This document shows, one piece after another, positions 3,030-7,233 of a stretch of 38,373 nt of DNA. The stretch is from positions 1 to 38,373 of IMG/VR virus record IMGVR_UViG_3300048908_000149, one strand, 5' to 3'. Source of the stretch: a virus. A model generated the notes under the pieces. That model was not told where the DNA came from, searched no databases, and worked only from the letters and a program-made list of their open reading frames with translations. The position numbers and the translations under genes are program-made. Position 1 is the stretch's first letter. Every line of letters starts with the position of its first letter.

Positions 3030-4505
3030 TCAGAGCACCGCCATCAGGCCATCGACGAGCGGGCGATTGGTGAGATAGCCGTTCGAAACCATGTGCAGGC
3101 CATCATTCGCGGCCATGCCAGGAACCCAGACGCCGCCATTGCGAATAGGCGTGAAAGCGAGCGTCGTCGCCGCCTCAAGAAGCGCGCAAATATCGATCAA
3201 CCCGTCCTGGTTCGCCGGGAAGGTCTGGCCTGTCGAAGGCGCCGTTCCGGTGATCGACGCCGCTGGCGTGGTCGTTCCTGTGAACGCCGCCGACATGACA
3301 ATCGTGCCGGTGCTATAATTGATCGACGAAATTGTCGTGCTTCCGGGGATGCCGCTCGTTGTCGACGTTATCGTCATGCCGGGGAAAAGCCCTAGCAGCG
3401 TCAGGCTAGAAACCGCCGTGATGTTGGCGCTGCCATTGGTCAGCGTGCCCGTCGTGGTGTACGCCCCCGCGCCGCGCCAGAAGTCGTTGGCGGTGCATCG
3501 CACGATTTCCTGACCGGCATTCTGCGGGGCCTGTCCTGACGTGGTATTCCAAAGGTCCCCGGAGGTTGTGTAGGGTGTGCAGGTTGTCCCATAGACACGG
3601 TCAACGCCATTGGCCTTGAGTGTCGTCGTGATCGTGTTGCGGTCTGTAATGCCCTGTGCCGCCGACCGACCATTGGAGATGTCATTACGAATGAGTTGCA
3701 AGATCGCCGAGAACGGACAGGTTGCGCTTGCCCCTGCCGCGACGAGCAACGCCGCGCGGGCGGTGAACCCGGCTGCGGCCACTGAGGCGCGGTCTCCAGG
3801 AGCCGCCCAATTGAGATGCGGGCCGACGAGCGCCGCGCCGCGCCCGAACAGGCCGCGCCCGCCAGCCGGGTCGAATACCGTATCGTCGGTCTCGCCAAGG
3901 CTGTCCGTGATCAGCACCCAGACTTTGCGATCCGACATCACAGAAACATATTGCGGTAGCCAGTTATTGGCTTCGCCCGAGCCAAGATAGGTGCTGTCCT
4001 GCGTATGGCCATAGCCGCTCGCGCCGACCTGATATTGGTCGCCGTTGCCGCGGTCGCAGCAATTCGAATAGCTCATCGACGGGACGAAGCCGCCGGCGCC
4101 CATCCCAATATCCCAGTTGATGATGAATTTCTTGCACGCTGGGTTGACGACGCCAGGGACATCGACGTAGCCGAGGGCATTGTTCGCGATGGCCGCTGAC
4201 GAATAAGTGGCGGTTGTCGTGCCATCCGATTGCGAAATCGGGCACCGCAGCGTCATTGTGCCGCCGTTGCCACTCTCGCCCGCGCCTCCGGTCAGGATCG
4301 CGCCATTCCAGAAGCCAATGCGGACGGTGCCGTTGACCGGGACGTAGGGAATTTGCCAGCACCGACCGCCGCTCTGCGTCTGTGACCCGGAACGGGCGTT
4401 CGGAATGCAGACGCGATTGGTTGCGTGGCGCAAACTTGGCGGCAGGGTGATGCGGTTGCTAGGCGCGACGAGGCTCAGCGACGGGATCGGAGGAAGATTG
4501 CTCAT
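3030..4505 (-). CDS. SGNH/GDSL-like hydrolase, tail-associated
   Basis: 491 residues. An SGNH-like core is suggested by VWVLITDSLGETDD (about residue 196-209), where Ser in TDSLGE would be the nucleophile, and by the C-terminal NDGLHMVSNGY, matching the D-x-x-H block V that carries the catalytic Asp and His. A Thr/Ser-rich beta insertion (about residues 350-430, GTLTNGSANITAVSSL region) looks Ig-like and lies between the blocks. Such enzymes on phage tails deacetylate or de-esterify surface polysaccharide. GGAG lies eight bases before the ATG. The gene originally followed the 155-residue appendage gene directly, before the HNH segment entered. Confidence 0.65.
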   Translation of the reverse strand: MSNLPPIPSLSLVAPSNRITLPPSLRHATNRVCIPNARSGSQTQSGGRCWQIPYVPVNGTVRIGFWNGAILTGGAGESGNGGTMTLRCPISQSDGTTTATYSSAAIANNALGYVDVPGVVNPACKKFIINWDIGMGAGGFVPSMSYSNCCDRGNGDQYQVGASGYGHTQDSTYLGSGEANNWLPQYVSVMSDRKVWVLITDSLGETDDTVFDPAGGRGLFGRGAALVGPHLNWAAPGDRASVAAAGFTARAALLVAAGASATCPFSAILQLIRNDISNGRSAAQGITDRNTITTTLKANGVDRVYGTTCTPYTTSGDLWNTTSGQAPQNAGQEIVRCTANDFWRGAGAYTTTGTLTNGSANITAVSSLTLLGLFPGMTITSTTSGIPGSTTISSINYSTGTIVMSAAFTGTTTPAASITGTAPSTGQTFPANQDGLIDICALLEAATTLAFTPIRNGGVWVPGMAANDGLHMVSNGYLTNRPLVDGLMAVL

Positions 4506-4517
4506 AATTTGCTCCGA

Positions 4518-4583
4518 TCAATCGACGAAGATGGCGACTTGGGCCGACGAACTCGCGGCGTAAACCTGGCATCGGGAGCGCAT
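4518..4583 (-). pseudogene. Stranded original 3' end of the 5450-5917 gene
   Basis: Reading this strand toward a TGA at 4518-4520 gives an ending CQVYAASSSAQVAIFVD. The intact gene at 5450-5917 ends SVYAPLSTAQVAIFVD. The last 14 residues agree at 11 positions or more, but the codons differ mostly at third bases: GC-rich here (GTC, GCC, ATC, TTC) and AT-rich there (GTT, GCA, ATA, TTT). No start codon or longer homologous frame exists upstream of this fragment. It is best read as the displaced 3' end left when the HNH segment inserted. Confidence 0.7.
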
Positions 4584-4652
4584 TTGAGCGCGCGTTAGCA
4601 ATATGCGGGGAACACGCATTTGGGTAGCCTCTAAGATGAGATTGAAAGGGTG

Positions 4653-5411
4653 CTAAATGATCATGCCGCGCGATTGCGCGAATTCTACTGGATCACGAGC
4701 ATGCTTGGAACTATTGCAGGGCTGACAAAGCAATTGTAGATTTCGAGGCCAGTTCGATCCGCCATTCACGAGAGCGATGATATGATCGACATGGCCCTTT
4801 CCAAGAAGCTTTTTCCGGCAATAAGCGCACTTGTCATGCTGTGCTTTGCGAATGCCCGAAATGTCTTCCTGCGTAAATGCCCCTTCCGCGCCAGATCGTC
4901 GTGCGCGACGGTTTCGAGTATTTGTAAGGACGTAATCAGGATTGGCTTTCTGCCAATCTCGACTTGTTTTCTTTGATTTCTCAGCGTTCTTCGCATACCA
5001 CGCACGATTCGCCGCGAGCACCTTCTCTCGGTTCTGGATTTTCCATTGCCGCTTTCGCTCTCTCTCCTGTGCGAGATTTTCAGCGTATTCCTCACGCCGT
5101 TTTTTGTTACGGCCTTCCGGGTCTCGGCTCCGGTACTTCCTCGCACGCTCAGCCATTTCCTCTCTATGTCTGGCATAGAATAGTCTTTGGGCTTCATTGA
5201 GTTTTTGACGTATCGTTGCTCTTTTCACTTCCGCCAGTTCATACGCGCACATCGCGCATGTTTTCGCTGATGTATAGCGTGGGGCTTTGTGCCCATTTTT
5301 GCATGGGTCTCCAGTGAAATAATAGCGCGATCCCGCTACAACTGCCGCCGTACGAGTGCGTGGCAGTTCTTCATAATTTATCGATTCTTGCGAGAACACA
5401 TTAGATGTCAT
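4653..5411 (-). CDS. HNH homing endonuclease
   Basis: 252 residues. An N-terminal zinc-binding module has C37, H41, C52 and C55 (YYFTGDPCKNGH, TCAMC). The centre, residues 60-170, is Lys/Arg/Glu-rich helix likely to contact DNA. The HNH core runs from about 195: C195xxC198, then HVDHII with catalytic H/D at 207-210, NGGSNWPRNLQLLC and C229xxC232 with K236. Such enzymes nick or cut DNA to spread their own gene. Base composition and codons are far more AT-rich than the neighbours. It has no Shine-Dalgarno but has its own promoter-like sequence just upstream, and it separates two tail genes that were probably adjacent. Confidence 0.88.
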   Translation of the reverse strand: MTSNVFSQESINYEELPRTRTAAVVAGSRYYFTGDPCKNGHKAPRYTSAKTCAMCAYELAEVKRATIRQKLNEAQRLFYARHREEMAERARKYRSRDPEGRNKKRREEYAENLAQERERKRQWKIQNREKVLAANRAWYAKNAEKSKKTSRDWQKANPDYVLTNTRNRRARRSGAEGAFTQEDISGIRKAQHDKCAYCRKKLLGKGHVDHIIALVNGGSNWPRNLQLLCQPCNSSKHARDPVEFAQSRGMII

Positions 5412-5418
5412 AATTTAT

Positions 5419-5447
5419 ATTATAGTTTCATTTTCAATGAGCAGCAA
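5419..5447 (-). promoter_or_regulatory. Sigma70-like promoter for HNH gene, probably leaderless
   Basis: On the minus strand TTGCTG (5447-5442) and a perfect TATAAT (5424-5419) are separated by exactly 17 bases. The expected transcription start, about seven bases past the -10 box, is at about 5412, immediately before the ATG at 5411. This would give a leaderless mRNA, in line with the absence of a ribosome site. The -35 box overlaps the last codons of the preceding gene's neighbourhood and the region is strongly AT-rich. Confidence 0.5.
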
Positions 5448-5449
5448 TA

Positions 5450-5917
5450 TTAATCTACAAATATTGCAACTTGCGCTGTTGATAATGGAGCGTACACGCT
5501 CACTCTACCTTTAAAGGTCTGGCTCGTCCATGACCCGCCCTGCGCCCCGACCGATGACCCGCCGCCGAGGGCGAACACGCTGGCGTTTACCGGCGCTGCG
5601 GCGTTCGCCGCCGTGCCGTCGTCGCGGATGATTGCGATCTGCGCGCCGGAGGTGTTTTCGATGTCGATATTGTTGCGCGATGGCGACGCCGCGACGGTCG
5701 CGATCAGCACATAGGAGGCATAGGGGCCCGACGCCGCGAAATTCGCGCCGATATTGGGCAGCGTCGGCTTGTTGGCGCTGTAATCGAGGCCGGTCGACCC
5801 GGCTTGAGCGACAGAGCCGCCCGACCCGCTATAGATGACCTCGGCATAAGTGCCGTCGCCCATGTCTTTGAGCTTTTTATTTTGGCCGGTTAGCACGGCA
5901 TAGGTTATGTCAGCCAT
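5450..5917 (-). CDS. Tail appendage structural protein with recoded 3' end
   Basis: 155 residues, beginning ADITYAVLTGQNKKLKDMGD, a start I associate with small virion proteins of alphaproteobacterial phages. The body is Gly/Ser/Ala-rich and beta-strand-like, with no catalytic motif. A GGAGCAAG ribosome site precedes the ATG. The last 20 or so codons switch abruptly from GC-rich to AT-rich usage (GTA, TTA, GCA, ATA) while the encoded residues match the GC-rich stranded fragment at 4518-4583. I infer the natural end was replaced by the invading HNH segment without loss of protein sequence. Confidence 0.6.
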   Translation of the reverse strand: MADITYAVLTGQNKKLKDMGDGTYAEVIYSGSGGSVAQAGSTGLDYSANKPTLPNIGANFAASGPYASYVLIATVAASPSRNNIDIENTSGAQIAIIRDDGTAANAAAPVNASVFALGGGSSVGAQGGSWTSQTFKGRVSVYAPLSTAQVAIFVD

Positions 5918-5956: not shown

Positions 5957-6322
5957 TCAGCGGATGATGGTCGGAATGACGGTAAACGTCCCGGTCATGA
6001 TGCGGGAGCGGATGCCGGAAGCCTCTACGATCAAGGCTTCATGGTAATAGTTCCCGGGCGTCTGGCTTTCGGTGTCGGCTTCGGCCAGCGTCACCCACAG
6101 CGACCATTCCAGCGTCGTGGAATCCTGCACGAAGCTGGCGCCGGTCGTCGCCGTCGATTTCTTCAAGAGGACGTCAGCGCCGCTGGAAGATGATGTTTTC
6201 CCCATCCACCAAGTTCCCGTCGCGCCGGTCGGGTCGAACGCCGATTCATCCGCGACCGTGATGGCAATAGTGAGTGTCGGCGTATCGCCTGCCGGAATGG
6301 AGACGTTCTGATTCTTGTTCAT
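5957..6322 (-). CDS. Small beta-rich tail appendage protein
   Basis: 121 residues from the ATG at 6322, chosen because it overlaps the preceding stop as ATGA and has GAAGGA seven bases upstream. Longer in-frame extension would run deep inside the neighbouring gene and is rejected. The sequence alternates hydrophobic and polar residues (TPTLTIAITVADE, LEWSLWVTLAEADT, YYHEALIVEA) as in an Ig-like or BppU-type baseplate domain. The pattern, a strand-rich module that describes a cast value and an upper-baseplate fold, is similar to N-terminal fibre domains, but this is only resemblance. Likely a virion component. Confidence 0.6.
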   Translation of the reverse strand: MNKNQNVSIPAGDTPTLTIAITVADESAFDPTGATGTWWMGKTSSSSGADVLLKKSTATTGASFVQDSTTLEWSLWVTLAEADTESQTPGNYYHEALIVEASGIRSRIMTGTFTVIPTIIR

Positions 6323-7233
6323 TTCGTTTCCTTCGGCAGGAGAATACCGACAAGGGATTTTGCGCGCTCGATCACGCCAATGACGGGCGCGGAGCGTGCG
6401 ATCACGCCGCCTAGCGCGATGCTGCGCGCGATGGAGCCTGACAGCGCAAGCGCGCGGATGGCGAGCGCATGAGCCGCCGTGGCGACAAGCGAGAGCGCCG
6501 ATGATGACGCCGCCGCGAGCGTGACAGACAGAGCGCGGGCGAGCGAAAGCCCGGAAGATGACGCGACCGACAGGCCTTGAATGCTCATGGCCTTGGTATT
6601 GGACATAGCCGAGGCCGAAGCCACCGCGCAATGCAGCGCGATTGACCGCGCCAATGCGAGCGTCGATGGCGCCGCGGTCGCCGCGACCTTGCCGACAGAC
6701 CGCTTGAGCGAAGCTGCCGAGGATGACGCCATAGTCAGCACGCGCGAAAACACGGTCGCCTTGAGCAACGAAACCGCCGAGGACGACGCGACCGAAAGCG
6801 CGCGGAAATAGGCGCGGGCAAAAATGAGCGAAACCACGCTCGAAGATGTGGCCGAAAAGATCTTTCCGACAGCGCGCTTGATCGACGCGGCCGACGCCGA
6901 AGCAACCGAAAGAGGCTTGCCGATGGATCGAATGATAGACGCCGCCGAGACCGACGCCGCAGAGAGCGCCTTGGCAACGTCGCGCTTGATCGACGCAGAC
7001 GAAGCCGAGGAAACTGTCAGTGCCCGCAGATAAGCCGTGATCCGCGTGAGGCTTACGCTGGACGCTGCCGAAACTGTCAGCACCCGCGCATAGGATAGCA
7101 CATAAGACAACGCCAAGGCGCTGGATGATGCGACAGTTAGCGAAACAGGGTTCGTGACCGAGTTAACAGTCGGATCGCGCAACCTGATATTAGTCGCGGT
7201 CGCCTCGCCCGGGCGAAGATAGATATTGACCAC
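6319..7233 (-). CDS. Ser/Ala-rich tandem-repeat protein
   Basis: 304 residues with a GTG start at 7233, four bases after the previous stop. After a 30-residue head, the chain is about eleven imperfect repeats of 18-20 residues with the theme LSVASSSAxSLxRAxxxxRA (for example LSVASASAASIKRAVGKI, LSVASSSAVSLLKATVFSRV). The C-terminal 50 residues lose the pattern (ALSGSIARSIALGGVIARSA). Ser/Ala with regular hydrophobics could form a beta-solenoid or a membrane-interacting helix bundle. No known domain is recognised. It sits among tail appendage genes and overlaps the next gene by ATGA, so a virion role is likely but unproven. Confidence 0.6.
   Translation of the reverse strand: MVNIYLRPGEATATNIRLRDPTVNSVTNPVSLTVASSSALALSYVLSYARVLTVSAASSVSLTRITAYLRALTVSSASSASIKRDVAKALSAASVSAASIIRSIGKPLSVASASAASIKRAVGKIFSATSSSVVSLIFARAYFRALSVASSSAVSLLKATVFSRVLTMASSSAASLKRSVGKVAATAAPSTLALARSIALHCAVASASAMSNTKAMSIQGLSVASSSGLSLARALSVTLAAASSSALSLVATAAHALAIRALALSGSIARSIALGGVIARSAPVIGVIERAKSLVGILLPKETK
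6420..7170 (-). repeat. Degenerate tandem repeats, 54-60 bp units
   Basis: The DNA coding the Ser/Ala-rich protein contains about eleven degenerate units of 54-60 bp. Each carries a run for A-S-S-S-A followed about nine bases later by a Leu/Lys/Arg segment. Three or so consecutive units have the 18-residue form (IKRxVxK ending), others the 20-residue form (xxYxRA or xxFSRV ending). The units are divergent at the DNA level, so expansion is not recent. Confidence 0.55.

Follow-up and report, generated by a model that had tools for sequence, protein, structure and literature searches.

A likely HNH homing cassette bearing a replacement 3' end for the phage gene it occupies

Among described systems the closest to that considered here are the mORF gene hybrids of fungal mitochondria, known for atp6 of Allomyces macrogynus and for atp6, atp9, cox2 and nad3 of Glomus. 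In these an in-frame foreign C-terminal part is followed by an endonuclease ORF, and that in turn by the native C-terminal part; the native copy is identical or nearly identical as protein to that of a relative, the inserted copy has diverged in nucleotides, and the enzymes are of the LAGLIDADG or GIY-YIG types (PMC3630166). Intronless homing is also the mode of the free-standing seg and mob endonucleases of phage T4, whose genes are located between other genes or, as with mobA and mobE, divide a gene into two parts that still work (PMC2988022). The subject here is one gene of a viral contig, IMG/VR record IMGVR_UViG_3300048908_000149, the whole of which (38,373 nucleotides) is called the window. 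A first-pass annotation had known of no standard name for the arrangement at this gene. There is a precedent for it, as fungal mitochondrial endonuclease ORFs with foreign C-terminal ends have been published (PMC3630166).

The invaded gene and its two 3' ends

The invaded gene (5450-5917, minus strand) specifies 155 amino acids of unknown function, and has tail genes on one side and an esterase-like gene on the other. In the direction of its reading the features, compared where relevant with the uninvaded contig L002, are:

5519 to 5917, minus strand: native body of the invaded gene, 91% identical as protein to the uninvaded L002 homologue, GC3 0.80
5450 to 5518, minus strand: rebuilt 3' end, TFKGRVSVYAPLSTAQVAIFVD-stop, rich in AT and foreign in appearance; its last 22 codons have GC3 0.23
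5412 to 5449, minus strand: AT-rich spacer ahead of the HNH start; its sequence includes the hexamer TATAAT
4653 to 5411, minus strand: HNH endonuclease gene, 252 amino acids, matching PF01844 (E 2.6e-12), with an intact HVDHI motif and CxxC pairs
4569 to 4652, minus strand: spacer of 84 nt from the HNH stop to the stranded end, the right-hand end of the insert, missing from L002
4518 to 4568, minus strand: stranded native 3' end, QVYAASSSAQVAIFVD-stop, with all 17 codons as in L002 at the protein level and 42 of the 51 bases shared with it
4506 to 4517, minus strand: ribosome-site region of the next gene, TCGGAGCAAATT, undisturbed and identical in L002

An AT-rich gene end, an HNH gene and a stranded GC-rich end before the next gene, which is what the first-pass annotation had described, are thus all present, on the minus strand. 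The working tail is SVYAPLSTAQVAIFVD-stop, AT-rich (the ORF terminates ...WTSQTFKGRVSVYAPLSTAQVAIFVD-stop), and the stranded DNA, CAGGTTTACGCC...GTCGATTGA, is GC-rich and sits upstream, at a distance of 12 nt, of the ATG with which the next gene (3030-4505, minus strand) begins. The two tails have 12 of 16 residues and the stop in common, with 31 of 51 bases identical, so that 'the same protein end in different codons', as it had been put, is right as to the largely synonymous recoding and wrong for 4 of the 16 residues. Not one of 100,000 in-register shuffles matched the observed similarity. Where the residue is the same, only 3 of 13 codons are spelled alike, whether the working tail is set against the stranded end or that of L002; with the latter it agrees in 13 of 17 codons as protein and 32 of 51 bases (stranded copy: 17/17 and 42/51).

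How unusual is the composition of the rebuilt end? The phage's other genes, taken as 1187 windows of 22 codons, have a mean GC3 of 0.72 and a minimum of 0.36, and none is as low as the 0.23 of the rebuilt 22 codons. The GC step is visible in the composition profile, and composition changes abruptly at the places predicted, about 5510 and about 4590. The recoding begins some six codons ahead of the point at which the stranded copy starts, the TFKGRV codons being likewise AT-rich, and in consequence the foreign segment is taken to be about 4569-5518. All tail residues that are invariant among the nine homologues compared are present in the rebuilt end, and for this reason it should function.

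Two IMG/VR contigs, L002 and L003, match the window in gene neighbourhood here and lack the HNH gene. In them GRV leads straight into QVYAASSSAQVAIFVD, i.e., ...WTSQTFKGRVQVYAASSSAQVAIFVD-stop-TCGGAGCAAATT-ATG, with the same next gene downstream, which places the insertion point between GRV and QVY, the native TFKGRV codons having been replaced too; blastn alignment to contigs of this type is interrupted at the insert. The expectation that in a relative lacking the HNH gene the gene body would join the stranded-type end directly is thereby met by L002, which has the nearest of the uninvaded homologues. Besides further viral contigs, the 23 distinct homologues of the target gene come from Shewanella phage vB_Sb_QDWS, a Paraburkholderia genome and a Rhizobiales MAG. 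None of them has been invaded: in every one the next gene follows directly on the tail, and tandem tails occur in 0 of the 23. (Two of the matching records, OK094664.1 for Shewanella phage vB_Sb_QDWS and OP650936.1 for Hujiaoplasma phage zrk29-1, are both of 47,902 bases and give the same match; they are probably a single genome entered under two very different hosts.)

As the dead copy has kept every residue and the working copy is respelled throughout, the working end, as far as sequence comparison can tell, came from outside, and it is the stranded copy that is native. The intactness of the dead copy also suggests, by inference, that the insertion was recent. No donor, i.e., an AT-rich native gene ending in SVYAPLSTAQVAIFVD, came to light when phages, IMG/VR, plasmids and GTDB genomes were searched at the protein and DNA levels and by alignment.

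The domain of the HNH protein is intact, with HVDHI at residue 207, and its PHROG families are those of endonuclease VII/HNH (PHROG 1035, 2118). A consensus scan of the region gave 3 promoter-like sites where 1.1 were expected; that the spacer with TATAAT is a promoter is possible, on weak evidence only. At the junction the 84 nt spacer and the native left flank have only CCAG in common, and a resemblance to a CRISPR repeat near 4600 was discarded as merely a short partial match. An HNH gene of the same broad family is annotated as a glycolate dehydrogenase subunit in MT161381.1 (595-1167) and related Xanthomonas FoX phages.

Two further features of the region may be recorded. Synonymous divergence from L002 is raised in the approximately 30 codons (5519-5617, minus strand) preceding the rebuilt end, where GC is still high: 14 of the 34 codons just before that end have synonymous changes, and there are 14 in the first 100 codons. 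Co-conversion or ordinary divergence may be responsible, and possibly the tract is a second or older conversion tract; it is not used as evidence. The other is a 304-residue protein (6319-7233, minus strand) consisting mostly of degenerate repeats, rich in Ala and Ser and each about 20 residues long (ALSVASSSAVSLLKA-like); L002 has a longer repeat protein in the corresponding place.

Rebuilt ends at other genes

Are replacement ends confined to this one gene? At 25 HNH loci the translated sequence upstream of the HNH gene was compared with that downstream, 150 mismatched locus pairs serving as controls. The self-match score of the window was 66, and three other loci, designated L006, L008 and L047, scored 54, 52 and 45, the control maximum being 44 (n=150). 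The fixed-window score of L047 is barely above that maximum, though its full alignment is strong. In each of the four cases none of 100,000 in-register shuffles reached the observed similarity, and in all four the AT content is higher in the rebuilt end than in the gene that it completes. The anticipated homologous HNH genes beside other targets in other phages do therefore exist, and have rebuilt ends:

L006, 3' end: the gene after the terminase ends AITPYGFYRFLISAGAKVVEV... (GC3 0.29); then the HNH gene; then stranded ALSPYGFYCDLRRNGAEIVRV... (GC3 0.81; gene body 0.78)
L008, 5' end of the terminase: stranded start MIEYDPQTGFPIF; then the HNH gene; then rebuilt start LIKTDPSTGFPIYSPDG...
L047, Synechococcus phage Ssp-JY40, 5' end of the helicase: stranded start MTLTLRPYQERCLADLWHWFER; then the HNH gene; then rebuilt start VTLVLRDYQERAISDLWAWFEK

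A Microcystis phage has an uninvaded homologue of the L006 target gene. The terminase of L006 is itself uninvaded and starts MIEIDPATGLKIFRPDG; when its start is compared with those of L008, the codons for the same residue are identical in 7 of 9 instances for the stranded start and 1 of 6 for the rebuilt one. The native GAATGA overlap of L008 persists, and the rebuilt terminase start overlaps the stop of the HNH gene (CTTTGATAA). In L047 the HNH gene has taken over the native ATGA, at which the preceding gene is overlapped, and its own stop overlaps the rebuilt start of the helicase (CTGTGACC). At 5' ends, then, not only the protein sequence but also the stop/start overlap between genes is restored. 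HNH and helicase genes are arranged in Yong-M3-232 as in Ssp-JY40. In the latter (PP438430.1, 2279-3097) the annotated HNH protein opens with 33 residues of the stranded helicase start (MTLTLRPYQERCLADLWHWFER...), an in-frame fusion.

The duplicated end was absent beside many of the HNH relatives compared. In L049, L079 and L081 the HNH gene is immediately ahead of a helicase, yet no stranded start is visible. Additional cases were considered and not accepted. In one phage, represented by L010 and L011 (99.8% identical), a P22-like portal gene is flanked by an HNH gene on each side, and the short possible duplicates there (5' MAKRKT; 3' APPSATNGAG/APPQPTNGTN) are not above controls and so weak only. 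L048 scored 42 and is of arginine-rich low complexity; L079 scored 46 in an uncalibrated run and its match is out of frame and of low complexity. It may be added that the junction between a small sigma-factor/HTH gene and the helicase has related HNH genes in L049, L079, L047 and L050, and is empty in Rhizobium phage 16-3. A tree of the HNH proteins did not show the four cases as one clade, and a single origin is not excluded. The survey is limited by small samples, by being mostly of metagenomic contigs, and by an enzyme group defined by one search history.

Explanations for the doubled end, and a possible mechanism

Phage genomes are mosaic, and could ordinary mosaicism, an illegitimate exchange with the homologous gene of an AT-rich phage in which the HNH gene was a mere passenger, account for what is seen? 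The lack of a donor and of cleavage data leaves room for it, as do the several HNH relatives that adjoin genes without a duplicated end. However, duplicated ends are found around homologous HNH genes at four unrelated targets, two of them 5' and two 3', and chance exchange would not favour one enzyme group nor achieve exact in-frame rebuilding every time; this explanation, though not to be dismissed, is improbable. An insert flanked by two copies of one end also brings to mind target-site duplication, with the insertion doubling the phage's own gene end and the copies then drifting. Drift predicts the reverse of the pattern present, in which the unused copy has kept all the native residues and the used one has changed nearly all its spelling and its GC; moreover the stranded copy is without the native TFKGRV codons, and we consider such self-duplication very unlikely indeed.

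A self-splicing intron encoding the HNH protein, with the recoded tail as part of the intron, has the merit that joining GRV to QVY would yield exactly the protein end of L002. Nevertheless, an Rfam search gave no group I or group II intron match, nor one to any intron family at a relaxed threshold, and once the HNH ORF and recoded tail are subtracted no more than about 120 nt are left, which is too short for a typical intron core. There is also no reason for an intron to begin by repeating the end of the protein itself over 16 codons, stop included after them, and in the 5' cases the rebuilt start lies after the HNH gene. Splicing can scarcely be entertained. An intein was discarded as well: the target gene is closed by a stop and the HNH ORF after it is separate, and a Pfam scan gave no intein domain. 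The first-pass annotation's view that no intron or intein is involved agrees with the Rfam and Pfam results. Of the two results that it had said would refute it, tandem tails in uninvaded relatives and a spliced intron, neither was encountered, there being no tandem tail in the 23 homologues and no intron family found.

In our judgement, then, 4569-5518 is probably a homing cassette with a free-standing HNH gene, its cargo being a copy of the target's 3' end that has diverged and is still functional. That a homing element inserted with a replacement 3' end had been proposed at the outset, and the empty sites, composition steps and recurrence support it. The sequences themselves show that there was an insertion, that the working end is foreign and the stranded end native, that relatives are uninvaded, and that the arrangement recurs with homologous HNH genes at three other targets (two of them 5'). 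Cleavage, homing, loss of the cut site and the donor are inferred, there being no biochemical data for these enzymes. How might such a cassette arrive? The HNH enzyme would cut or nick an uninvaded gene near the GRV/QVY codons, and repair templated by an invaded donor phage would bring in the HNH gene. With the left crossover inside the shared gene body, the donor tail would substitute for the native tail, which would end up stranded downstream, adjoining the ribosome site of the next gene. The product would be a poor substrate for its own enzyme and its protein still usable.

The expectation of a poor substrate comes from the working end being spelled so differently, and the earlier idea that the element destroyed its own cut site is to this extent plausible. 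It is not demonstrated: the 3 of 13 identical codons in the window tails compare with 3.4-4.3 expected under saturated divergence. Simulation of codon avoidance gave the same answer in all four cases, with identical codons (3/13, 3/11, 3/8 and 5/14) at the level of saturated synonymous divergence, and deliberate codon avoidance was rejected as there is no excess over such divergence in 4 of 4. Since codon identity is what saturated divergence alone would give, immunity of the product may be its by-product.

A broader proposal, advanced tentatively and with doubt somewhat outweighing belief, is of a class of phage HNH cassettes that systematically supplies a recoded replacement for whichever gene end is occupied. 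At 3' ends this would be a new tail, and at 5' ends a new start recreating the stop/start overlap, the native start being left before the HNH gene or fused to it; the cargo would serve for rescue and immunity to cleavage, and would swap gene ends between phage lineages. If this is true, HNH cassettes are the equivalent in nature of the recoded-rescue homing systems that have been engineered.

Comparison with mitochondrial and T4 endonuclease genes

What is at issue is a way for selfish DNA to enter a gene without splicing, namely by bringing a replacement for the part it damages. With such cargo gene ends become possible homing sites, and replacement ends explain small abrupt foreign patches at the ends of phage genes. 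Stranded ends also mislead annotation, as in Ssp-JY40, where the HNH gene as annotated begins with the stranded helicase start.

Like the T4 seg and mob genes, the endonuclease gene of the window is without an intron or intein and is missing from relatives at the same place, and like the mob enzymes its product is of the HNH type. Unlike the window, the T4 review gives no replacement gene end and no stranded native end (PMC2988022), and homing activity has been demonstrated for the T4 enzymes and not for the HNH enzyme of the window. The domain family to which the latter belongs, the HNH/endonuclease VII-like phage proteins (PF01844, PHROG 1035, 2118), has a name that implies no replacement of ends. 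In the literature searched, which included PMC2988022 and PMC10448857 and covered few subscription papers, neither a phage example nor a 5'-end version was found; the architecture itself is known from fungal mitochondria.

The resemblance to the mORF hybrids is closer. Here too a duplicated gene end lies on both sides of an endonuclease ORF, with the stranded end nearest the uninvaded relative and the inserted end divergent. The differences are that a phage and an HNH enzyme are involved, and that there are also 5' ends with recreated stop/start overlaps. The inserted end of the window has its own stop, whereas some Glomus mORFs are in phase with the gene. A criterion for the mORF hybrids is that the hybrid gene is expressed and the native end silent; for the window there are no transcript data. 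As the phage and fungal mitochondrial designs use unrelated enzymes, the analogy suggests that the same design had more than one evolutionary origin.
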